A stretch of DNA of 34,001 nucleotides from Neocallimastix lanati (nom. inval.) (taxonomy: Eukaryota; Neocallimastigomycota; Neocallimastigomycetes; Neocallimastigales; Neocallimastigaceae), in NCBI GenBank assembly GCA_016946835.1, contig JACVTC010000383.1, positions 1 to 34,001 of the forward strand, in the 5' to 3' direction. Positions 17,221-34,001 of this stretch are shown one piece after another (position 1 is the first letter of the stretch; the number at the start of each line of letters is the position of its first letter). A program made the position numbers and the translations under genes. The notes under the pieces were generated by a model that was given only the letters and a program-made list of their open reading frames with translations, ran no database searches and had not been told where the DNA came from.

Positions 17221-17484
17221 TGTTAGAATACAAAGAAAAATATATTAAAATTATATTAAAATAATTTATATGTATTAAATAAATAAAAGATATTTTTATA
17301 ATACAACGAACTCGTTGTTAAGCTTAAATACAATGAAATATATTATGTAATAATTTCTCGTTATATTTTTAATAAGCCACAAAATAGTATAAATACAAAT
17401 GTAATCTCATAAATTTTTAAAAATCAAGTAATTACTCATATTAAATAAATAAACTTTAATCAATAAAATATTTTATAAATAAAA
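17221..17484 (+). repeat. 5' LTR of copia element 2
   Basis: 264 bp, TGTTAGAATAC...ATAAATAAAA; note that it ends in AAAA rather than the usual CA, as fixed by comparison with the 3' LTR and by the ATTAT target duplication. Carries a palindrome ACAACGAACTCGTTGT (17303-17318) and a TATA box TATAAATA (17388-17395) followed by ACAA, the likely promoter. Confidence 0.85.
17388..17395 (+). promoter_or_regulatory. TATA box in LTR
   Basis: TATAAATA preceded by AAGCCACAAA, conserved at the same place in the 3' LTR (22616-22623) and in the related LTR of copia element 4 (31947-31956, TATATAAATA, also after AAGCCACAAA), although the LTRs are otherwise quite diverged. Conservation supports a promoter role. 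Confidence 0.5.
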
Positions 17485-17498
17485 GATTAAGAGTTTCA
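17485..17498 (+). promoter_or_regulatory. Primer-binding site of copia element 2
   Basis: GATTAAGAGTTTCA directly after the LTR. The complement, TGAAACTCTTAATC, matches the anticodon arm of tRNA-Lys(CUU) (arm sequence TGAGA-CTCTTAA-TCTCA known in eukaryotes) with one G-to-A difference. A primer would be a 5' tRNA half ending near nucleotide 40. Confidence 0.6.
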
Positions 17499-18381
17499 TC
17501 CTTATACTATCTACGACATGTCTAACGAAACCAAATTAAGAACCGAAGATATTCTCAATAAGGATAACTTCGAAAACTGGGAATTCCTTATTAAAAACAT
17601 TCTCAAATCTTTAAAAATTTTACAGTATGTAAATGAGAATGTAATCGGTAAATTAAATGATAAGCTTAAGGAGGAAAAGGGAAAACCCAAATCCGACGAA
17701 ACCGTCAAAGCTATCAAGGACTTGGAAAAGGACATCAAAGAAGCTGAAACCCAAGATGCCTTAGCCAGTACCATTATCAGTAAAAATGTAAGTCAAGAAG
17801 TTTTGAGCTACATAAGATATCTTACCACCGCCTATGATATTATGGAAAAATTAAAGGTCTTATATGGAAAAAAGAAAACTGCTGATCTCAACTACTGGTT
17901 GAAGAAGTTATATTCTTTAAAAGCCAAAAATCTTTCGGAATGCAAGGATATCATTAATCAAATTAAAGAAATCTTTGAAGTAATGGATAAGAACAATATC
18001 AAACTCGGAACTTGGGAAAAGATCAGGGTTTTATATTTTTCTTATCCAAAAGTTTTAAGAGACCTTATTCATCCTAGTGGAACAGAAACAGTTGATGACT
18101 TCCTCGAAGAGTCAATCAATAAGATTAATTTCCACATTTTCCTACATAGTGCTATCAATTTCGATAGAAGCGTCACAGATAAAGGTGACTTCATGGATAT
18201 TGATAACATTGAGTCAAGTGGTTCGAAAAATAATAAAACCAAACCAAGTCCGGAGCCAAACTATTGTTACCTGTGCAAAATGTTTGGACATACTACCGAT
18301 GAATGTAGATTTAACCTTATCAACAAAAACAGGAACAGATCGACTCAAAAAGGTAAGAAGCAATCAAACAAAAAGAAAACC

Positions 18382-18740
18382 AAAATCAATAAAAGGAAAG
18401 GTAAAAATAACCACCCAAAATCAATAAAAGGAAAGGTAAAAATAACCACCCAAAATCAATAAAAGGAAAGGTAAAAATAACCACCCAAAATCAATAAAAG
18501 GAAAGGTAAAAATAACCACCCAAAATCAATAAAAGGAAAGGTAAAAATAACCACCCAAAATCAATAAAAGGAAAGGTAAAAATAACCACCCAAAATCAAT
18601 AAAAGGAAAGGTAAAAATAACCACCCAAAATCAATAAAAGGAAAGGTAAAAATAACCACCCAAAATCAATAAAAGGAAAGGTAAAAATAACCACCCAAAA
18701 TCAATAAAAGGAAAGGTAAAAATAACCACCCAAAATCAAT
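18382..18740 (+). repeat. Ten perfect 35-bp tandem repeats inside copia gag, plus 9-bp partial
   Basis: Unit AAAATCAATAAAAGGAAAGG + TAAAAATAACCACCC, starting at 18382 and recurring every 35 bp to 18731, then a 9-base partial. All ten copies look identical. Because 35 is not a multiple of 3, frames rotate: units 1 and 2 code for KINKRKGKNNHP and KSIKGKVKITTQ, and unit 3 contains a TAA; units 6 and 9 repeat that stop. Nine extra units add 315 bp, a multiple of 3, so the frame after the array is the same as before it. A single-unit ancestor would have had an unbroken Gag-Pol frame here. Confidence 0.95.
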
Positions 18741-21700
18741 TGCAAACGTCGAATATGAAGAACGAAATTCTGATGAAGAACTTTCCTTAGAAGAACTTAG
18801 GACCATGTATGATAAAACTTTAAACAGCTTTGAGCCGTTAGAAGAAAAAGAGAACACTAAAGAAAACTACGAAAATAAATGTATTTCTTTAGTATTAAAT
18901 TCTTCAGAAGATACAACGATTTGAACCTTTGATACTGGTGTTTCAGAGCACATTACCAATAACAAAGATATCCTCTCAGACTTTAGAGAAGAAAAGATCT
19001 CTATGCAGTGTGCAAATAATTCAATCTGTGAGTTTGACGGGGTTGGTACCTATGAAGGAAGTATTAATGGTTACAACATTAAATTCGAAAATGTCCTCTA
19101 TTCTAAACAAGTTAACAAGAATCTTCTGAGTGGAATTAAACTTGCGAAGAATGGATTAAAATGTAACATTAAATCCAGGAGAGACAAAGTTTTTCTCACT
19201 TTAAAAACCACACTTGAAAACAAAAGAACAATTAACATAGGCACATTTAAAGCTAATAAAAACAATACAATTCACATACTTACGAAGAATAAATCGAATT
19301 TAAAGAATTGTATTGACATCGTTTCACCTGAAGAAACTATGGACATAAATGACCAGTCTAAAATGCTATGGCATAGAAGACTTGGACATTTTTATCACGA
19401 CAATTTAACTAAATATCTAAAACTCCACAATGTCAAAATTAATGAATGCTTAAATTGTAAAATTGCCAAATTAAATAGGAAACCCCATAATGGAGACACT
19501 CTAAAGGCAAAGCATCCATTAGACGTAATCCATTCTGATGTTATCGGTCCTATTTCAAAATCATACTCAGGGAAAAGGTATGTTCTTACTTTTATTGACG
19601 AATATACTCGCAAAAGTTGGATCTTCCTCTTGGAAAACAAATCAGAAGTTCCAAGAACAATTATAAATTTCTTTACTTACTTAAATAATCAATTCTACTA
19701 TAATATTAAAACTTTTCGTTCGGATCAAGGTACTGAATATAATAATAAAAAGGTACTAAACTACTGCAAGGAACACGGTATAATAAAAACATTTTCACCA
19801 CCATACAATCCGCAAAACCACGGGATTGCTGAACGATTCAACTACACCATTGTAAGTTGTGCAAAAACTTTAATTCAGTGGAGCAAAATGTCTAGTGAGT
19901 TTTGGGATTACGCTATCAAATATGCAAATTTACTTTATAACATAACTCCACATAAAGAAATTGGAAATAAAATTCCAAATGAAATTTATTATAACAAAAA
20001 GATCAGTCTTAAATATATTAAAGTCTTTGGTTGTGATGCCTACTATAAAGATTTTTCACAAGGAAAAATGAAATTTGATAGCAACAGTAAAAAGGGCGTA
20101 TTTTTAGGAATAAGCATTGAATCCAATTGCTATATAATTATGGATTCAAAGGACTACAGTATTCACTTAGTCAGAGAGGCAGTATTTGATGAAGAAACTC
20201 CATCAAATTTAACTACCAGAATACGCAACAATAAATTACCAACCAACATTTTTAATAACGATAATTATATTTACGAATTACCAATTATCAACTCTAATGA
20301 AAATGAAAATACATACGATGATTCTGGAAAATTAATATACAATGAAGAATCTAATGAAGAAAATACAGAATCTAAAGAAAATAATTCTTCATCAAGAAAA
20401 GGTAAGGAACCAGAAATCGATTCACCCGTTTCATCTATAAAAAACAATAATACTAATAAAATTATAGATACTCCTATTACTAACAACAAGAAAGATGAGA
20501 TTAATAACTCTGCTAAAAGTAAGGAACCTGAAGACAACTATATAAATGATGAAAAAATTGAATCCATCGATGATCTCGCTTCAGATTTCCAATCTATTAG
20601 TGTTTCAAATGATGAATCAAATTTCTCTGGGGACATTTCTTTAGAAAAGGATAAAATAAAATTTAACCCATCTACTAAAAGAAAGTCATCAACTTGTAAT
20701 AATACACATATCAAAAAGAAGATTAACTTAAATAATGAAATATTAAACACTGTTTCCCTTAAACATAAATTGATTCATTCAAAACTTCCGGATAGTAAGA
20801 AACTAAGACCATCTATGAATGAATCGCATAAAAGACCTGGAAACCCTATTCAATCCAACAGTAACTAAAAGTACAAGATCTCCCTTGACAATGTTGAAAC
20901 TTCTAAAGGATGCATTACTGAAACACCTCTTTCATATAAACAAGCCATCACACGTTCAGATAAAATCCGGTGGATAGAAGCTATGAATTCCGAATTACAA
21001 AACTTCTATGACAATCGAACCATGATTTTTGTTAAATCGCTTCCTCCTGGTATTAAACCCATAACTACTAAATGGGTTTATACTCTCAAAAAAGACGGCA
21101 ATGGTAATATCTCAAAATACAAGGCTCGTCTGGTTGCTCGTGGTTTCACCCAGAAAAAGGGAATTGATTATAACTTAACATATTCCCCTACTCTTAGTTT
21201 AGATAGTCTAAAACTTATAATTGCGCTTGCTTCAAAATTCAATTGGGATCTAATGCAGCTTGATATTAAAGCTGCCTATCTTAATGCTCCGTTGGATAAG
21301 GATATTTATGTTAATATTCCCCCTGGTGATAAGAATTTTGGTAAAGGTTATTGGCTTCTTAGAAAAGCTTTATACGGCTTAAAACAGTCAGGTCGCCAAT
21401 GGCACATCCACTTCACAAACTTTCTCAAAAATAATGGTTTCACTCAATTGACATCTGAACCATGTATTTTTGTTAAAATGTAGGGAGGTGGAGCTGTCTG
21501 TGTTATTGGAGTTTACGTGGATGATTTATTAATAACAGGTATAAAATACTGTATAAACAAAATTATTAAAAGAATTAAGAAAAACTTTAAAGTTTCAAAA
21601 TGCAGTGAAGCAGATTATATTTTAGGAATTAATATTGAAAAGGAAAATTCAAGCTACGTAATTTCTCAAATTCAATTAATAAATGATATATTACAAAAAT

Positions 21701-22449
21701 TCAAAGTTAAAAATATAAGAAAGTCAAAAACGCCTTGTTCAAGCATCTCAAATTCAGCAAAGAATAATGAACCATTCGATAAAACAACATTTAAAAGTGC
21801 AGTCGGATCGTTAATCTATCTAGCCAGGTGTACCCGTCCAGATATTTCTTACGCTGTAGGAAAGATTGCTAGAAATTCTGAGAATCCTACCATAGCTGAT
21901 TGGAAAATGGTAATAAATATATTAAAATACTTAAACTATACTAAATACTACAAAATTAAATATAAAAGACAGGGGGAAATTATGGCATATACTGATGCTG
22001 ACTACGCTAGTGACCCAAAAGATAGAAAATCTACTTCTGGGTATATAATATTAATGAATAATGATCCAATATGTTGACAATCCAAGAAACAAACAGTAGT
22101 TGACACATCTACCGCAGAAGCTGAATACATTGCTACCGCTGAATGTACTAAAAAGGCTTTATGGATTCGAAATATTTTATATGAAATATTCAACATTAAA
22201 AAACCAATAAAAATATTCACCGATAACTTAGCAAGTAAAACGACAATAGAAAACGGTGAACTCAACAATAAATTAAAACATATAGAAATAAAATTTTACT
22301 TCAATAAAGATAATATCAAAAATAACAAAATAAAATTAGAATACATCAATACCGAAAGGATGTTGGTCGATCCGTTAACAAAAGATTTTAATGGACCAAA
22401 AATGACTAAGTTTACAGACCAAATTTTTGACAAGCAAACATTCTGGTCT

Positions 22450-22458
22450 GAGGGGGAA
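22450..22458 (+). promoter_or_regulatory. Polypurine tract of copia element 2
   Basis: GAGGGGGAA directly before the 3' LTR start TGTTAG; overlaps the last sense codons of the RNase H frame. Confidence 0.75.
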
Positions 22459-22712
22459 TGTTAGAATACAAAGAAAAATATATTAAAATTATACTAAAAT
22501 AATTTATGTGTATTAAATAAATTAAAAGATATTTTTATAATACAACGAACTCGTTGTTAAACTAATGAAATATATTATGTAATAATTTCTCGATTTTTAA
22601 TAAGCCACAAAATAGTATAAATACAAATGTAATCTCATAAATTTTTAAAAATCAAGTAATTACTCATATTAAATAAATAAACTTTAATCAATAAAATATT
22701 TTATAAATAAAA
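22459..22712 (+). repeat. 3' LTR of copia element 2
   Basis: 254 bp, colinear with the 5' LTR; differences are a few substitutions, a short deletion after the CGTTGTTAA palindrome and one near CTCG. Followed by the target duplication ATTAT (22713-22717). Confidence 0.85.
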
Positions 22713-24680: not shown

Positions 24681-25458
24681 TTAATTAGCATTCACTTCAG
24701 TAAAGTATGGGATTACATTTTTAAGGTGGATGTTTCTTTCTGCTATTTCTTCGGTTATGGGGTCACACACAGTTACCGTGTTTAATTCGCGTTTCACTAT
24801 TCTTAATGGACCGGTAAAGTAAGGATCCAATTTTCTCCTGTTGAATACCTTCACTAGTATTAAATCTCCTGGTTTATATTCAGAGCGCTGTCTTTTAATT
24901 TTTCTTCTTCTATCTACCTATAACTTATTTGCCGTATCAACATTTTCAATTGCTTCCGATATCCATTTGTGATGAATAATAAACTTTCTCATCCAATATT
25001 CCTCTTCTCCTTCATCTTTGTCTACTCCCTGTATATTTAGTCCCAACTCAAATGGCTGCAAATCGTGTCTTCCATATAGTAGTTCAAAGCTACTAAAACC
25101 TGTAGCTTCACTTTTACATGTACGTAACGCCCACAGAGCACTGGGTAATATCTCAAGCCAGTTTGTTTCCTTATTTCCCAAGACACGCAGATATTTCGAA
25201 ATTTCTTTATTCCTATTCTCAACTTTCCCATTAGAAGCTGGATGGTATGTGGTTACATTCAATACAATTACATCATGAAGATCTAAAAATATTTTTGTTT
25301 TATCCGAAATAAACTGGGGGCCATTATCCGTGATTAGAAGTTCTGGGGTTCCGTGTCTTGCAAATAATGATTTTAAGAATCTAATAACATCATCAGATTC
25401 AATATTTTGTACTGCTTCGTCTTCTACCCATTGCGTTAGGTATTCAACAACTACTAAT
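24681..25458 (-). pseudogene. Ty3/gypsy integrase, C-terminal two thirds, one stop
   Basis: One minus frame from the junction at 25458 to TAA at 24681-24683. It begins ILVVVEYLTQWVEDEAV, then FARHGTPELLITDNGPQF with the second catalytic Asp, TTYHPASNGKVENRNKE with the catalytic Glu (spacing D-X35-E), then ALWALRTCKSEATGFSSFELLYG, and a C-terminal region RSEYKPGDLILVKVFNRRKLDPYFTGPLRIVKR...HLKNVIPYF typical of gypsy integrase tails. A TAG at 24918-24920 interrupts between the two parts. The first catalytic Asp and the zinc-binding N-terminus are missing by deletion. GC content is higher than the flanks. Confidence 0.85.
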
Positions 25459-25530
25459 ATAGTAAATAATTATTGTTATTATTGTTATATCATAGTACAA
25501 TAATACATATTTCTACTGTAGGTTGTACCA
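25459..25530 (-). repeat. 5' LTR stub of the gypsy element
   Basis: 72 bp matching the first 72 bases of the LTR at 24020-23949 (minus), starting TGGTACAACC. It ends at TTTACTATA, where the full LTR continues AATATC but this copy goes into integrase codons; a few bases of A/T microhomology lie at the joint. Confidence 0.7.
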
Positions 25531-26012: not shown

Positions 26013-27830
26013 TTAACTTATTATTAATTTTCCAGTGTTGCCTATTGCTATATAAGTGACCAGCTCGTTACAGATGTTATCGTTTTCCATTGTATTGTGA
26101 AGTTCATTATTAATACTTTTTGGGTTATTATGTTGAACATTATTATTATTTGTTGATTCATTTCTTATTGTGCTGATATTTGTTTTGTTGATAATAATAG
26201 TATTATCATTATGATTAATATTACTACTGTTGTTATTTTTATCATTGTGTTTGTTGATGTATGGATTTATATTTTTGTAAGTGTTGGTGTCTTTTTGATT
26301 ATTTGAATTTATTTTTTTATCAAAAATATATTCATTAATCTTGTTTTTCTTTTGTAAGTTTTATTGTAATAATTGTACTGATTTAATTTCTTTATGTTAT
26401 TGGTAAAGTATTTGTTTATAAAAGAATTTCCGGGTTCATTTTCCATAAATTCGACTGGACGACCTAAAATAATTATATTTTTTATAATATCATACACTTT
26501 ATATCCATTAGTGTTGTTACTATAACCAAGAAAGATTCCAGGGTGAGAGTTGTTATTGAATTTTGAACGAAGTTCTTTAGGAACAAAGAAGTAGACCCTG
26601 CATCCAAAAACTTGAAAGATACTGTAATCTACAGGTTTGTTATGGAAAACTTCATAAGGAATTCTGCTTTGATTACTTTGGTGGGGGAGTCTATTATGAA
26701 TGAAGGTAGCAGTATCGACTGCATACTCCCAAAATTCATGACTAAATTTGGCTTCGTTGAGTAATGCTTTGGCAGAGGAAATAAGGATGCCATTAAATCT
26801 TTCTGCTCGACCATTTTGAGAGGGATTATACGGAATGGGGAATTGATGTTTGATCCCATTTTCTTGACAGAAAGTTTGAAATTGACTGTTTTGAAATTCT
26901 TTTCCATTGTCAGAGTAAATGGCTTATAGTATATTTTTTGAATTATATATTTCATTGTACCAAATAATTAATTTATTGAATATTTCACTTTTTCTCTCAA
27001 TGAAGATTACCCAACCGAATCTTGAATAGTCGTCTAAGATAGTGAGGAAGTATTTATTGTTGTTAATGGAATTGATGACAGGTCAAACAAGATCCATATG
27101 AATAAGATCTAAAATTTGACTTGCTTTATTTGTTGAAACTTTATAAGGTTTATTTTTTATTTTGGAGTTGATGCATATTAGGAAATTTAACTTTTATGTT
27201 AATATTGCTTAATTTATCTTGGATTTTATAAATATCAAAATGACCTAAGCGTCTATGCCAGAGGTCTGTTAATTGATTTTTATTTAAATTGTTGTTGATT
27301 TCATAAGAATTATTTGTTTTATTTTTGTTAAAATAAATTTGTTGTCTTGAAGTGATTATTTTAAAGGTGTTTTGATTATCTGATATTGATTTGTATATTC
27401 TGTTTCTTTTATTGTCATAAATTATGGCTTGTGGTGAATTATTATAATTGTTGAAAATGATTTTAAAATTTTGTTGAACTAACTGATTAATAGATATCAA
27501 ATTTTTATTTATATATTTTGAAAAATAAACATTTTTAAGAATAAAATTGTAATTATTGATAAATCCAATAAAATCACCACAATAGTTTTATAAAATTTTT
27601 CTTCCATTTGCGACTGAAATTTTTACACTGCATTTTGATATATTTAATATTTTATTATTGATTGAATTCCATAACTATCAATTTTGTTCCTATTTTAGGT
27701 TTAAGAATGAAGCTGAAATTTTTTTTTATATCTTTTAATTTTAAATAAATAATATTAGACATTTTACTTATATTTTCATCATATCTGATGTCTGGGTGAT
27801 ATTTTTGGGTACAATTTATTTTTTATTTAG
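26013..27830 (-). pseudogene. Copia protease-integrase polyprotein remnant
   Basis: Read down the minus strand: CTQKYHPDIR (knuckle-like), IDSYG at the protease active-site position near 27665, KISVANGRK, then YFSKYINKNLISINQLVQQNF...LWHRRLGHFDIYKIQ (27150-27500, pre-integrase). A frameshift near 27175 leads to ICINSKIKNKPYK and IHMDLV*PV (first catalytic Asp; TGA 27083-27085), LDDYSRFGWVIF, a TAA at 26924-26926, YSDNGKEF (second Asp), NPSQNGRAERFN (Glu, D-X35-E) and LGYSNNTNGYKVYD. From 26923 to 26309 the frame is open, 205 codons. A homopolymer frameshift near 26310 leads to an Asn-rich linker ending at TAA 26013-26015. Integrase geometry is conserved, but the gene is dead. Confidence 0.8.
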
Positions 27831-27995
27831 TCATATATTAATAAATATTATAAGATAAATGAAATATTAAATATATAAATAAATAAGTAATGATCAGTAT
27901 CGTAATAATTTTAAATATTGTATTATTTGAATAATATTCTATTCTTATATATAATGATATACTTAGCTTTTGCGTTTTATTCAATCGGATGAGAC

Positions 27996-28009
27996 TGAGA
28001 CTCTTAATC
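27996..28009 (-). promoter_or_regulatory. Primer-binding site of copia element 3
   Basis: Minus strand GATTAAGAGTCTCA; its complement TGAGACTCTTAATC is identical to the first 14 bases of the conserved tRNA-Lys(CUU) anticodon arm. The first base follows ...TTTTTGAAA, the presumed LTR end, which like element 2 ends in A's. Confidence 0.6.
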
Positions 28010-28234
28010 TTTCAAAAATTTAAGTTAATAAACACTTATTTTAAAATATCAATAATTACACACATGAATTTACAAAATAAATATTTATTTGTATTTTATA
28101 ATTATGTCTTTGTTAGAGGTATTTTATTATAAAATCAAGAGAATTCTTTTCAAATTTAACATAATTACTTAGTTTTATACTTTTATAATATATTGATTAT
28201 TATAATATTAAGAATAAATTAATAATTATTTTAA
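28010..28234 (-). repeat. Probable 5' LTR of copia element 3 (partial, far edge unresolved)
   Basis: By position next to the primer site this should be the 5' LTR. A TGTTAA start on the minus strand exists at 28162, which would make an LTR of about 153 bp, but with no second LTR or target duplication this is a guess. Confidence 0.3.
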
Positions 28235-31827: not shown

Positions 31828-32046
31828 TGTTAGAATAATTAAAATATTGAATTAAATTAATAATAATTAGTAATAATTATTAATGCATTTATTTTAAGAA
31901 TATTCATGTAATTCATAATTAGTAATAAAGCCAAGCCACAAATTTTTATATAAATACAACTATATTTGTGTAAATACTAAAACAATTAACAGTAATATAA
32001 TAAATAAAATTATAAATTTATTAATAAAACTTAAATATTTCTTACA
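31828..32046 (+). repeat. 5' LTR of copia element 4
   Basis: 219 bp from TGTTAGAATAA to TTCTTACA, set by the TG start, the CA end and the adjoining primer site. Shares TGTTAGAATA, AAGCCACAAA, TATAAATACAA and AATAAA-rich ends with the element 2 LTR but lacks the ACAACGA palindrome. Confidence 0.7.
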
Positions 32047-32060
32047 GATTAAGAGACTCA
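32047..32060 (+). promoter_or_regulatory. Primer-binding site of copia element 4
   Basis: GATTAAGAGACTCA after the LTR. Complement TGAGTCTCTTAATC fits the tRNA-Lys(CUU) anticodon arm with one mismatch. Confidence 0.6.
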
Positions 32061-32078
32061 AGTCACTTAAAACTTAAA

Positions 32079-32940
32079 ATGTCTGAACTTATTTTATCCG
32101 AAAAAGAAAAACTCCAGGGAATAGATAATTTCCCAATTTGGTATTCTATAATGATGGATTACTTAAGGGCGAAAAAATTAACAAAATATATCAAATATAA
32201 TGTGAATGACATGTTAAAAAGCTACAAACAATGGGAATTTATCACCAGAAGACAGTGATTTCAATGAAAACCTAGAAACAGAAGACGCAATGGCCTGTAC
32301 TATTATCTTAACTAATGTCTGTGATAAAATAAAAACATATATAAAGTATTGTAAAACTGTACATGAGAGAATGAAGAAAATAGAAAAATTATATTAAAAC
32401 GATAATTCTGCCTTTTATGGTATGTGGATGAAAAGGCTATATTCAATCCGCGCAAAGGATGTTCAAGAAACAATGAACGTCACAAATGAAATAATGGAAT
32501 TATTCAGATTATTGAATGACTCCCCTACAAAACCTACTAATATAGAAAAGATCATAATCATGCACGATGCATTACCAAATGATCTTAAAAGCAAGGTGAT
32601 AGTTAGTTCAAAATTAACTCCAGAACAGTTTTACGAAGAAATAAAAGACAAATTCACTGTCTTCACATACAAAAATGATAGAGTTAATAACTCTAATATT
32701 GAAAAGCAAAAAACAGAAAGTATCCATTCAAGTGGAGATATACCAGATCTCAATAATATAGAAAATAAGAAAAGATATATGATACAAAGAAAATTCAAAA
32801 ATAAGACGAAGAAATATTCTTGATTTGTAATAAAAAGGACATTTAGCAAAGGAATTGTTACTTTAACCCATGCGGAACCAACAGAAATAACAAAAGATGC
32901 ATATTTAACAAGAACATTAAGAAGAAATTAAATAATACAA
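32079..32940 (+). pseudogene. Copia gag, frameshifted
   Basis: ATG 32079 opens MSELILSEKEKLQGIDNFPIW...DYLRAKKLTKYI, corresponding to the N-terminus of element 2 gag. A frameshift near 32230 leads to LSPEDSDFNENLETEDAMACTIILTNV...ERMKKIEKLY, TAA at 32395-32397, then GMWMKRLYSIRAKDVQETMNVTNEIMELF (matches YWLKKLYSLKAKNLSECKDIINQIKEIF of element 2, which fixes the alignment). The frame ends at TGA 32821-32823; another shift gives a broken CCHC knuckle ICNKKDI*QRNCYFNPCG. No 35-bp repeat array is present where element 2 has one. Confidence 0.8.
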
Positions 32941-33071
32941 ACTCAAATAAGAACAAAGAAAAAAACAATCAATAAATAATATATAAATCGATAAAGAGAA
33001 TTACAAGGACAAAACACTGTGTTATGATGAAATACAAACGATGTTTGGTCCATCTATAAACAACCTGGAAC

Positions 33072-34001
33072 ATGATGAATCGTCAACACAAAATGAAAGA
33101 TAGTTATACAACTTGGACTTATGACACAGGTGCCAGCGAACATATCACAAATAATAAAAATATACTGGAGGATTACACAGAAAATAAGACTACCATGAAA
33201 TGTGCAAATAATACTCTCTGCCATTTTGAAGGATATAGAACATATCATGAATAATAAATAACCATAAATTTACTTTAAATAAAGTATATTATTCAACAAA
33301 CAGCAATAAGAACATAATTAGTAGGATAAAATTAGCAAAATCTGGAATCAATGTAAGCATCAACAACATCAACGAAAAAATATCATTAACATTAACTAAC
33401 AACAACAATAAAATAATCGACATCATATTTCCAGATCAATTTAATATTGTTAGACTAAAAGCAACAAATTTAAAACCAATATCCTCAATTGAACAACAAA
33501 CAAGTTAATGGCATAGACGGTTGGGGCATTTTTACCAACCAGACATTAATAAATATATAAATTTACATAATGTAAACACAGAACAATGCCTAGATTGTAA
33601 AATTTCAAAATTAAAAATGAAACCCCACAACAAAATCACTCCAATGACTTCGACTCTATTAGAAGGTATACACTCTGATTTGATAGGACCAATTAAACCG
33701 ATCTCAATAGATGGTATGAAATATATACTAACATTTATTGATGAATTTAGTCGCAAATCATGGATATATCTACTAAAAGAAAAATCTTAAACAGTAAACG
33801 CAATATTATATTTTCTCAAATATATAGAAAACCATCACGGTAATAAGATAAAATTTTTTAAAAGCGATAATGCTAGAGAATACAACAATTCCAAAATAAA
33901 GAAATATTTTAGAAAACTTGGAATAAAGAAAATATTTTCTACTCCGTACAATCCGGAAAACAATGGCATCGCGGAACGATTTAACCAAACTCTTATGAAC
34001 T
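33072..34001 (+). pseudogene. Copia protease and integrase, partial
   Basis: Protease: TTWTYDTGASEHITNN (active-site DTGA) in the frame 33072-33254, then stop/frameshift near 33245. In the next frame, from about 33258 to the window end: pre-integrase region, TAA 33506-33508, WHRRLGHFYQPD with the HHCC site (CLDC), IHSDLIGPI (first Asp), TFIDEFSRKSWIYLL, TAA 33788-33790, then FKSDNAREYNN (second Asp) and NPENNGIAERFN (Glu; D-X35-E). The integrase core is complete to the Glu apart from the stop. Here the conserved Trp before the protease motif is intact (TGG), unlike element 2. Confidence 0.85.

Follow-up and report, generated by a model that had tools for sequence, protein, structure and literature searches.

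A putative primer-binding site for a tRNA-Lys(CUU) half in copia retrotransposons of an apparent anaerobic gut fungus

Results

The window, that is, the whole 34,001-nucleotide stretch of DNA analyzed here, is contig C316 of the 199-Mb genome that was searched. Element 2, on its plus strand, opens with a 5' LTR (TGTTAG...TAAAA; 17221-17484) that shares 94.3% identity with the 3' LTR at 22459-22712, the latter preceded by the polypurine tract GAGGGGGAA. The target duplication ATTAT stands just before the first LTR and just after the second. Inside lie a gag ORF (17518-18462; PF14223 Retrotran_gag_2, E 7.6e-10) and a pol region interrupted by stops (18925-22464) that matches PF00665, PF25597, PF22936, and then PF07727 (RVT_2; E 3.1e-42). 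The domain order gag, pre-integrase, integrase, RVT_2, with integrase upstream of reverse transcriptase (RT), makes element 2 a copia element; the gag match, the paired LTRs, and the 5-bp duplication are further Ty1/copia features. A 35-base unit is repeated in tandem about eleven times at the end of its gag (18264-18810), and the gag ORF stops inside this array; since the unit does not hold a whole number of codons, its expansion shifts the frame. Some relatives have a single open frame of about 1,600 amino acids, unlike the element 2 gag.

Elements 3 and 4 are more fragmentary, and no RT was found in the stretches of either that were subjected to domain search. Element 3, on the minus strand, retains pre-integrase and integrase fragments at 26309-27587 (PF00665, PF25597), with a weak PF13976 match, below the cut-off, at 27150-27587. 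Element 4, on the plus strand, is cut by the contig end and consists of gag and pre-integrase remnants (32081-34001) recognized by their similarity to element 2, with 27.7% identity over 119 amino acids between the two gags and 58% over 93 amino acids at 33509-33790.

The pattern GATTAAGAGNNTCA occurs without mismatch at 17485-17498 (+), 27996-28009 (-), and 32047-32060 (+), and there is no other exact copy in the window. With up to two mismatches allowed, the window holds five matches against a shuffle mean of 3.74, i.e., no excess, so that the case for the motif comes from its position and from the genome. The first-pass annotation of this DNA had placed it directly after the 5' LTR in all three elements, which our data confirm. 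The two LTRs of element 2 diverge exactly at 17485, the first base of its site (GATTAAGAGTTTCA). No second LTR was found in the window for element 3 (site GATTAAGAGTCTCA) or element 4 (site GATTAAGAGACTCA), and the border was therefore judged by where other genomic LTR copies end. For element 3, 13 of 41 matches to a query running from the LTR into the site end at 28010, 5 end within 4 bases of it, 22 continue through the site, and 1 ends elsewhere; the corresponding element 4 query gave 42 matches, with 11 ending at 32046, 9 within 4 bases, 15 passing through the site, and 7 ending elsewhere. One relative of element 2 has the same last 70 LTR bases at both ends and GATTAAGAGTCTCA after the 5' copy only. 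The exact site also recurs in L088 and L089, two other relatives of element 2, and in L105, a relative of element 4, for which reason the deviations of elements 2 and 4 look private to those copies. Upstream of element 1 of the window no such site was found, the best candidate having three mismatches.

The complement of the motif had been read as the anticodon arm of tRNA-Lys(CUU), exact in element 3, and the host gene bears this out: nucleotides (nt) 27-40 of the host tRNA-Lys(CUU), TGAGACTCTTAATC, are the exact complement of the element 3 site (14/14 pairs, nt 40-27). With three more bases added, the arm in its tRNA-gene form (TGAGACTCTTAATCTCA) is found at 73 places in the genome; all of the 30 loci that were read are tRNA-Lys(CUU) genes with one identical 73-base sequence. 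Of the single mismatches that had been assigned to elements 2 and 4, the latter is a true one (13/14 pairs), while that of element 2 is a G-U wobble pair in RNA, added to 13 Watson-Crick pairs. No better-fitting tRNA emerged among the 13 host species compared, which were taken from loci at hand and form part of the host set: tRNA-Lys(CUU) pairs best with the three sites (13-14 Watson-Crick pairs), followed by tRNA-Arg(UCU) (10-11). The tRNA-Lys(CUU) genes lie within regular mixed tRNA arrays on contigs C94, C160, C188, C251, and others, and on C188 they are spaced 5.4-5.7 kb apart in alternating orientation; tRNA-Arg(UCU) genes form large clusters at C555:170732-399007 and on further contigs.

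Across the genome, the exact 14-mer GATTAAGAGTCTCA occurs 1902 times and its reversed control never. Subtracting the 73 tRNA-type places leaves about 1,829 non-tRNA sites. The looser pattern GATTAAGAGNNTCA occurs 2030 times (reversed control, 16), hence about 128 sites carry another NN. To avoid choosing elements by the motif itself, copies were sampled by gag similarity: a search with the element 2 gag gave 143 matches from the 142 scored out of 1119 candidates, and 39 pre-gag regions were selected by hand so that the gag start was reached and identities of 27-100% were spanned. The site was present with at most two mismatches in 37 of these 39 regions, compared with 0 of 780 shuffled motifs, and the opposite strand never came closer than three mismatches. 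The survey of other copia elements that the first-pass annotation had proposed thus returned the same site nearly everywhere sampled. Mismatches numbered 0, 1, 2, 3, and 5 in 27, 7, 3, 1, and 1 regions, respectively, and the two most divergent copies have apparent small insertions. Over 21 non-redundant rows, complementarity held in 18-21 at each position from nt 27 to nt 40 and fell to 1/21 at nt 26 and 0/21 at nt 42; opposite nt 41 stands an A in 20/21, which is also the final base of the LTR. In some families an inverted copy of the site's core lies beside it, as in L001 (9 bases, upstream), L004 (8 bases, downstream), and L080.

A gag-independent survey by RVT_2 (150 matches scored of 2891 candidates) included eight matches on contigs C1-C11, where the list of sites is complete. 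By hand comparison, six of these eight have a same-strand site 4.5-5.3 kb upstream, one has a site at 2.7 kb, and one has none; in the latter, on C2, the expected 1.7 kb contains no site, and the best candidate has four mismatches. Use of this one tRNA arm is thus nearly universal among the copia elements sampled. The 14-mer is also present in at least 120 stretches of the viral_contigs collection, in which an RT search for relatives found none.

Two other tRNA arms were considered as primers and rejected. The arm of the host tRNA-Arg(UCU), tried as a second primer, yielded 68 exact 14-mers genome-wide, 62 of them inside tRNA matches by hand comparison, and so has no population of primer-binding sites (PBSs). 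The initiator-Met arm (GGTTATGRGCCC) occurs at 54 places (reversed control, 0), a total that cannot amount to a population like that of the Lys arm. In these genome-wide counts, neither arm shows an excess comparable to that of Lys(CUU).

Discussion

Directly seen here are the 14-base site next to the LTR, its recurrence in nearly all copia elements sampled, a host tRNA that is exactly complementary to it, and the lack of a like excess for two other arms. These observations are best read as half-tRNA-Lys(CUU) priming, the cleaved half being the probable form of the primer. We consider it highly probable that the motif is a copia PBS primed by a 5' portion of the host tRNA-Lys(CUU), from nt 1 to about nt 40, which anneals through nt 27-40. 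The 14 bases past the 5' LTR would serve as PBS of these Ty1/copia-type LTR retrotransposons, to which the fragment would anneal by the 5' strand of the anticodon stem, the anticodon loop, and the two bases that open the 3' strand. Cleavage of this stem at about 40/41 would leave a 3' hydroxyl on the fragment, from which the minus strand may be extended into the 5' LTR. The border and the complementarity profile support a primer 3' end near nt 40, as predicted in the first-pass annotation. Because the base opposite nt 41 is the last base of the LTR, nt 40 is preferred over nt 41. If integrase leaves the ends untrimmed, the position of the LTR border defines the primer end to about one base; integrase trimming could shift it, and the predicted position is probably good to a base or two.

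Other explanations of the motif fit these data less well. One possibility, which we regard as very unlikely, is that no tRNA site is involved and that the motif serves self-priming of the kind seen in Tf1, or forms part of a hairpin like the conserved one of the GalEa elements in fungi. Inverted complements of at least six bases are indeed enriched, within 30 bases downstream of the site (9/32 non-redundant sites against 3.3 expected) and upstream of it (7/32 against 3.4), yet most sites have no inverted copy, and only 1/32 on each side reaches eight bases; the excess is genuine yet slight and does not extend to the sites as a whole, and a conserved hairpin as the main device was accordingly set aside. 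Self-priming of the Tf1 type uses 11 bases (PMC7175516), whereas in elements 2, 3, and 4 the longest complements of the PBS within the 5' LTR (its start being a guess for elements 3 and 4 in this test) are 6, 7, and 5 bases, i.e., 5-7 bases of LTR RNA at shuffle level. Nor would either device explain why all 14 bases fit a host tRNA exactly. This fit could in principle come from tRNA-Lys SINEs or scattered tRNA pseudogenes, since a tRNA-derived repeat would spread the 14-mer too. We give that origin almost no credence, as only 73 of the 1902 sites continue like a tRNA arm, the sites read in context have no tRNA sequence flanking nt 27-40, and their place between LTR and gag, together with the LTR border data, contradicts it.

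If the site is a PBS, its partner could still be a tRNA outside those collected, given that the comparison covered 13 species and thus less than the whole set. This is very improbable, for 14/14 pairs including the CUU anticodon cannot be bettered over that length, although an equal match is possible. It is similarly hard to credit that the site binds the anticodon loop of an uncleaved tRNA-Lys(CUU) while the actual primer lies elsewhere. DNA alone cannot separate binding from cleavage, but the site stands exactly at the LTR border, the place of a primer end, and the TGG that would pair with a tRNA CCA end, already noted as lacking in the first-pass annotation, is absent past the LTR in the window elements and in the 39 gag-chosen regions. 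Priming by a tRNA-Lys(CUU) half thus remains the reading that we prefer.

Copia elements primed by tRNA halves elsewhere are likewise marked by a PBS that abuts the LTR and pairs with the anticodon arm of a host tRNA, as found here. The Candida element Tca2 uses a tRNA-Arg half. Drosophila copia and yeast Ty5 use half of the initiator tRNA-Met as primer (PMC5371799, PMC10886601); they share the position of the anticodon-arm PBS, and their primer comes from an internal tRNA cut, but the tRNA differs from the tRNA-Lys(CUU) proposed here. In plants, half-molecule PBSs are reported only from Ty1/copia, where the lineages Osser, Bryco, Gymco-II, and Bianca employ tRNA-Met and tRNA-Ile rather than Lys halves (Neumann et al. 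2019, PMC6317226). In rust fungi, Copia and Helenus elements have anticodon-loop PBSs for non-initiator tRNAs, namely, those of Tyr, Ile, Asp, and Asn, and the passages considered mention no tRNA-Lys loop (Kojima 2024, PMC10886601).

The choice of tRNA-Lys in place of the initiator tRNA, which had appeared to be a different one, turns out to have a precedent, for Donnart et al. (2017, PMC5445492) report it for the FunCo1 copia elements of Pezizomycotina. Their PBS after the 5' LTR, ATTAAGAGTCT, pairs with a stretch inside tRNA-Lys, the comparison involving the melanogaster tRNA. It is contained in GATTAAGAGTCTCA; element 3 matches it exactly, and elements 2 and 4 each differ from it by a single change, a likeness of PBSs as distinct from one in RT/RNaseH tree placement. 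FunCo1 elements are reported almost only from Pezizomycotina, and the passages considered mention neither the CUU isoacceptor nor a tRNA cut in half (PMC5445492).

The novelty of our findings is therefore limited, as half-tRNA priming was already known in fungi and plants, and a PBS for tRNA-Lys in fungi. Outside subscription papers, a literature search returned no paper joining Neocallimast, primer binding site, and retrotransposon. CBM_10 (dockerin-like) matches number at least 150 in the genome (150 of 1440 candidates scored), and the window has a GC content of 20.7%. Many such matches and a low GC content point to an anaerobic gut fungus. The present analysis adds this apparent host, identification of the exact isoacceptor among the host's own tRNA genes, and the near-exclusive use of one arm by the elements sampled.

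It is a tentative proposal, to which we give somewhat less than an even chance, that nearly the whole copia population of this genome, with gags as little as 27% identical, is tied to a single primer, the 5' half of tRNA-Lys(CUU). Since the ascomycete FunCo1 elements have the same primer, the choice would then be either a legacy of an early fungal ancestor or the outcome of movement between distant fungi. Should the proposal hold, cleavage of tRNA-Lys(CUU) would be a long-standing activity of the host that thousands of elements need. With the tRNA-Lys PBS of FunCo1 now recognized in what is probably a distant fungal lineage, ancestry and transfer could be told apart by a tree, and a genome with some 1,800 candidate sites for the half of a single non-initiator tRNA would make a good system for finding the tRNA-cutting agent and the reason why the primer is kept.

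Two further features of the window deserve mention. The segments 27965-28200 and 31880-32090 have copies at 100% identity on contigs C90, C393, and C479, and this region hence seems duplicated, unless the contigs are uncollapsed alleles. On the minus strand, 24918-25469 holds an integrase-like reading frame that is gypsy-type in appearance by eye.
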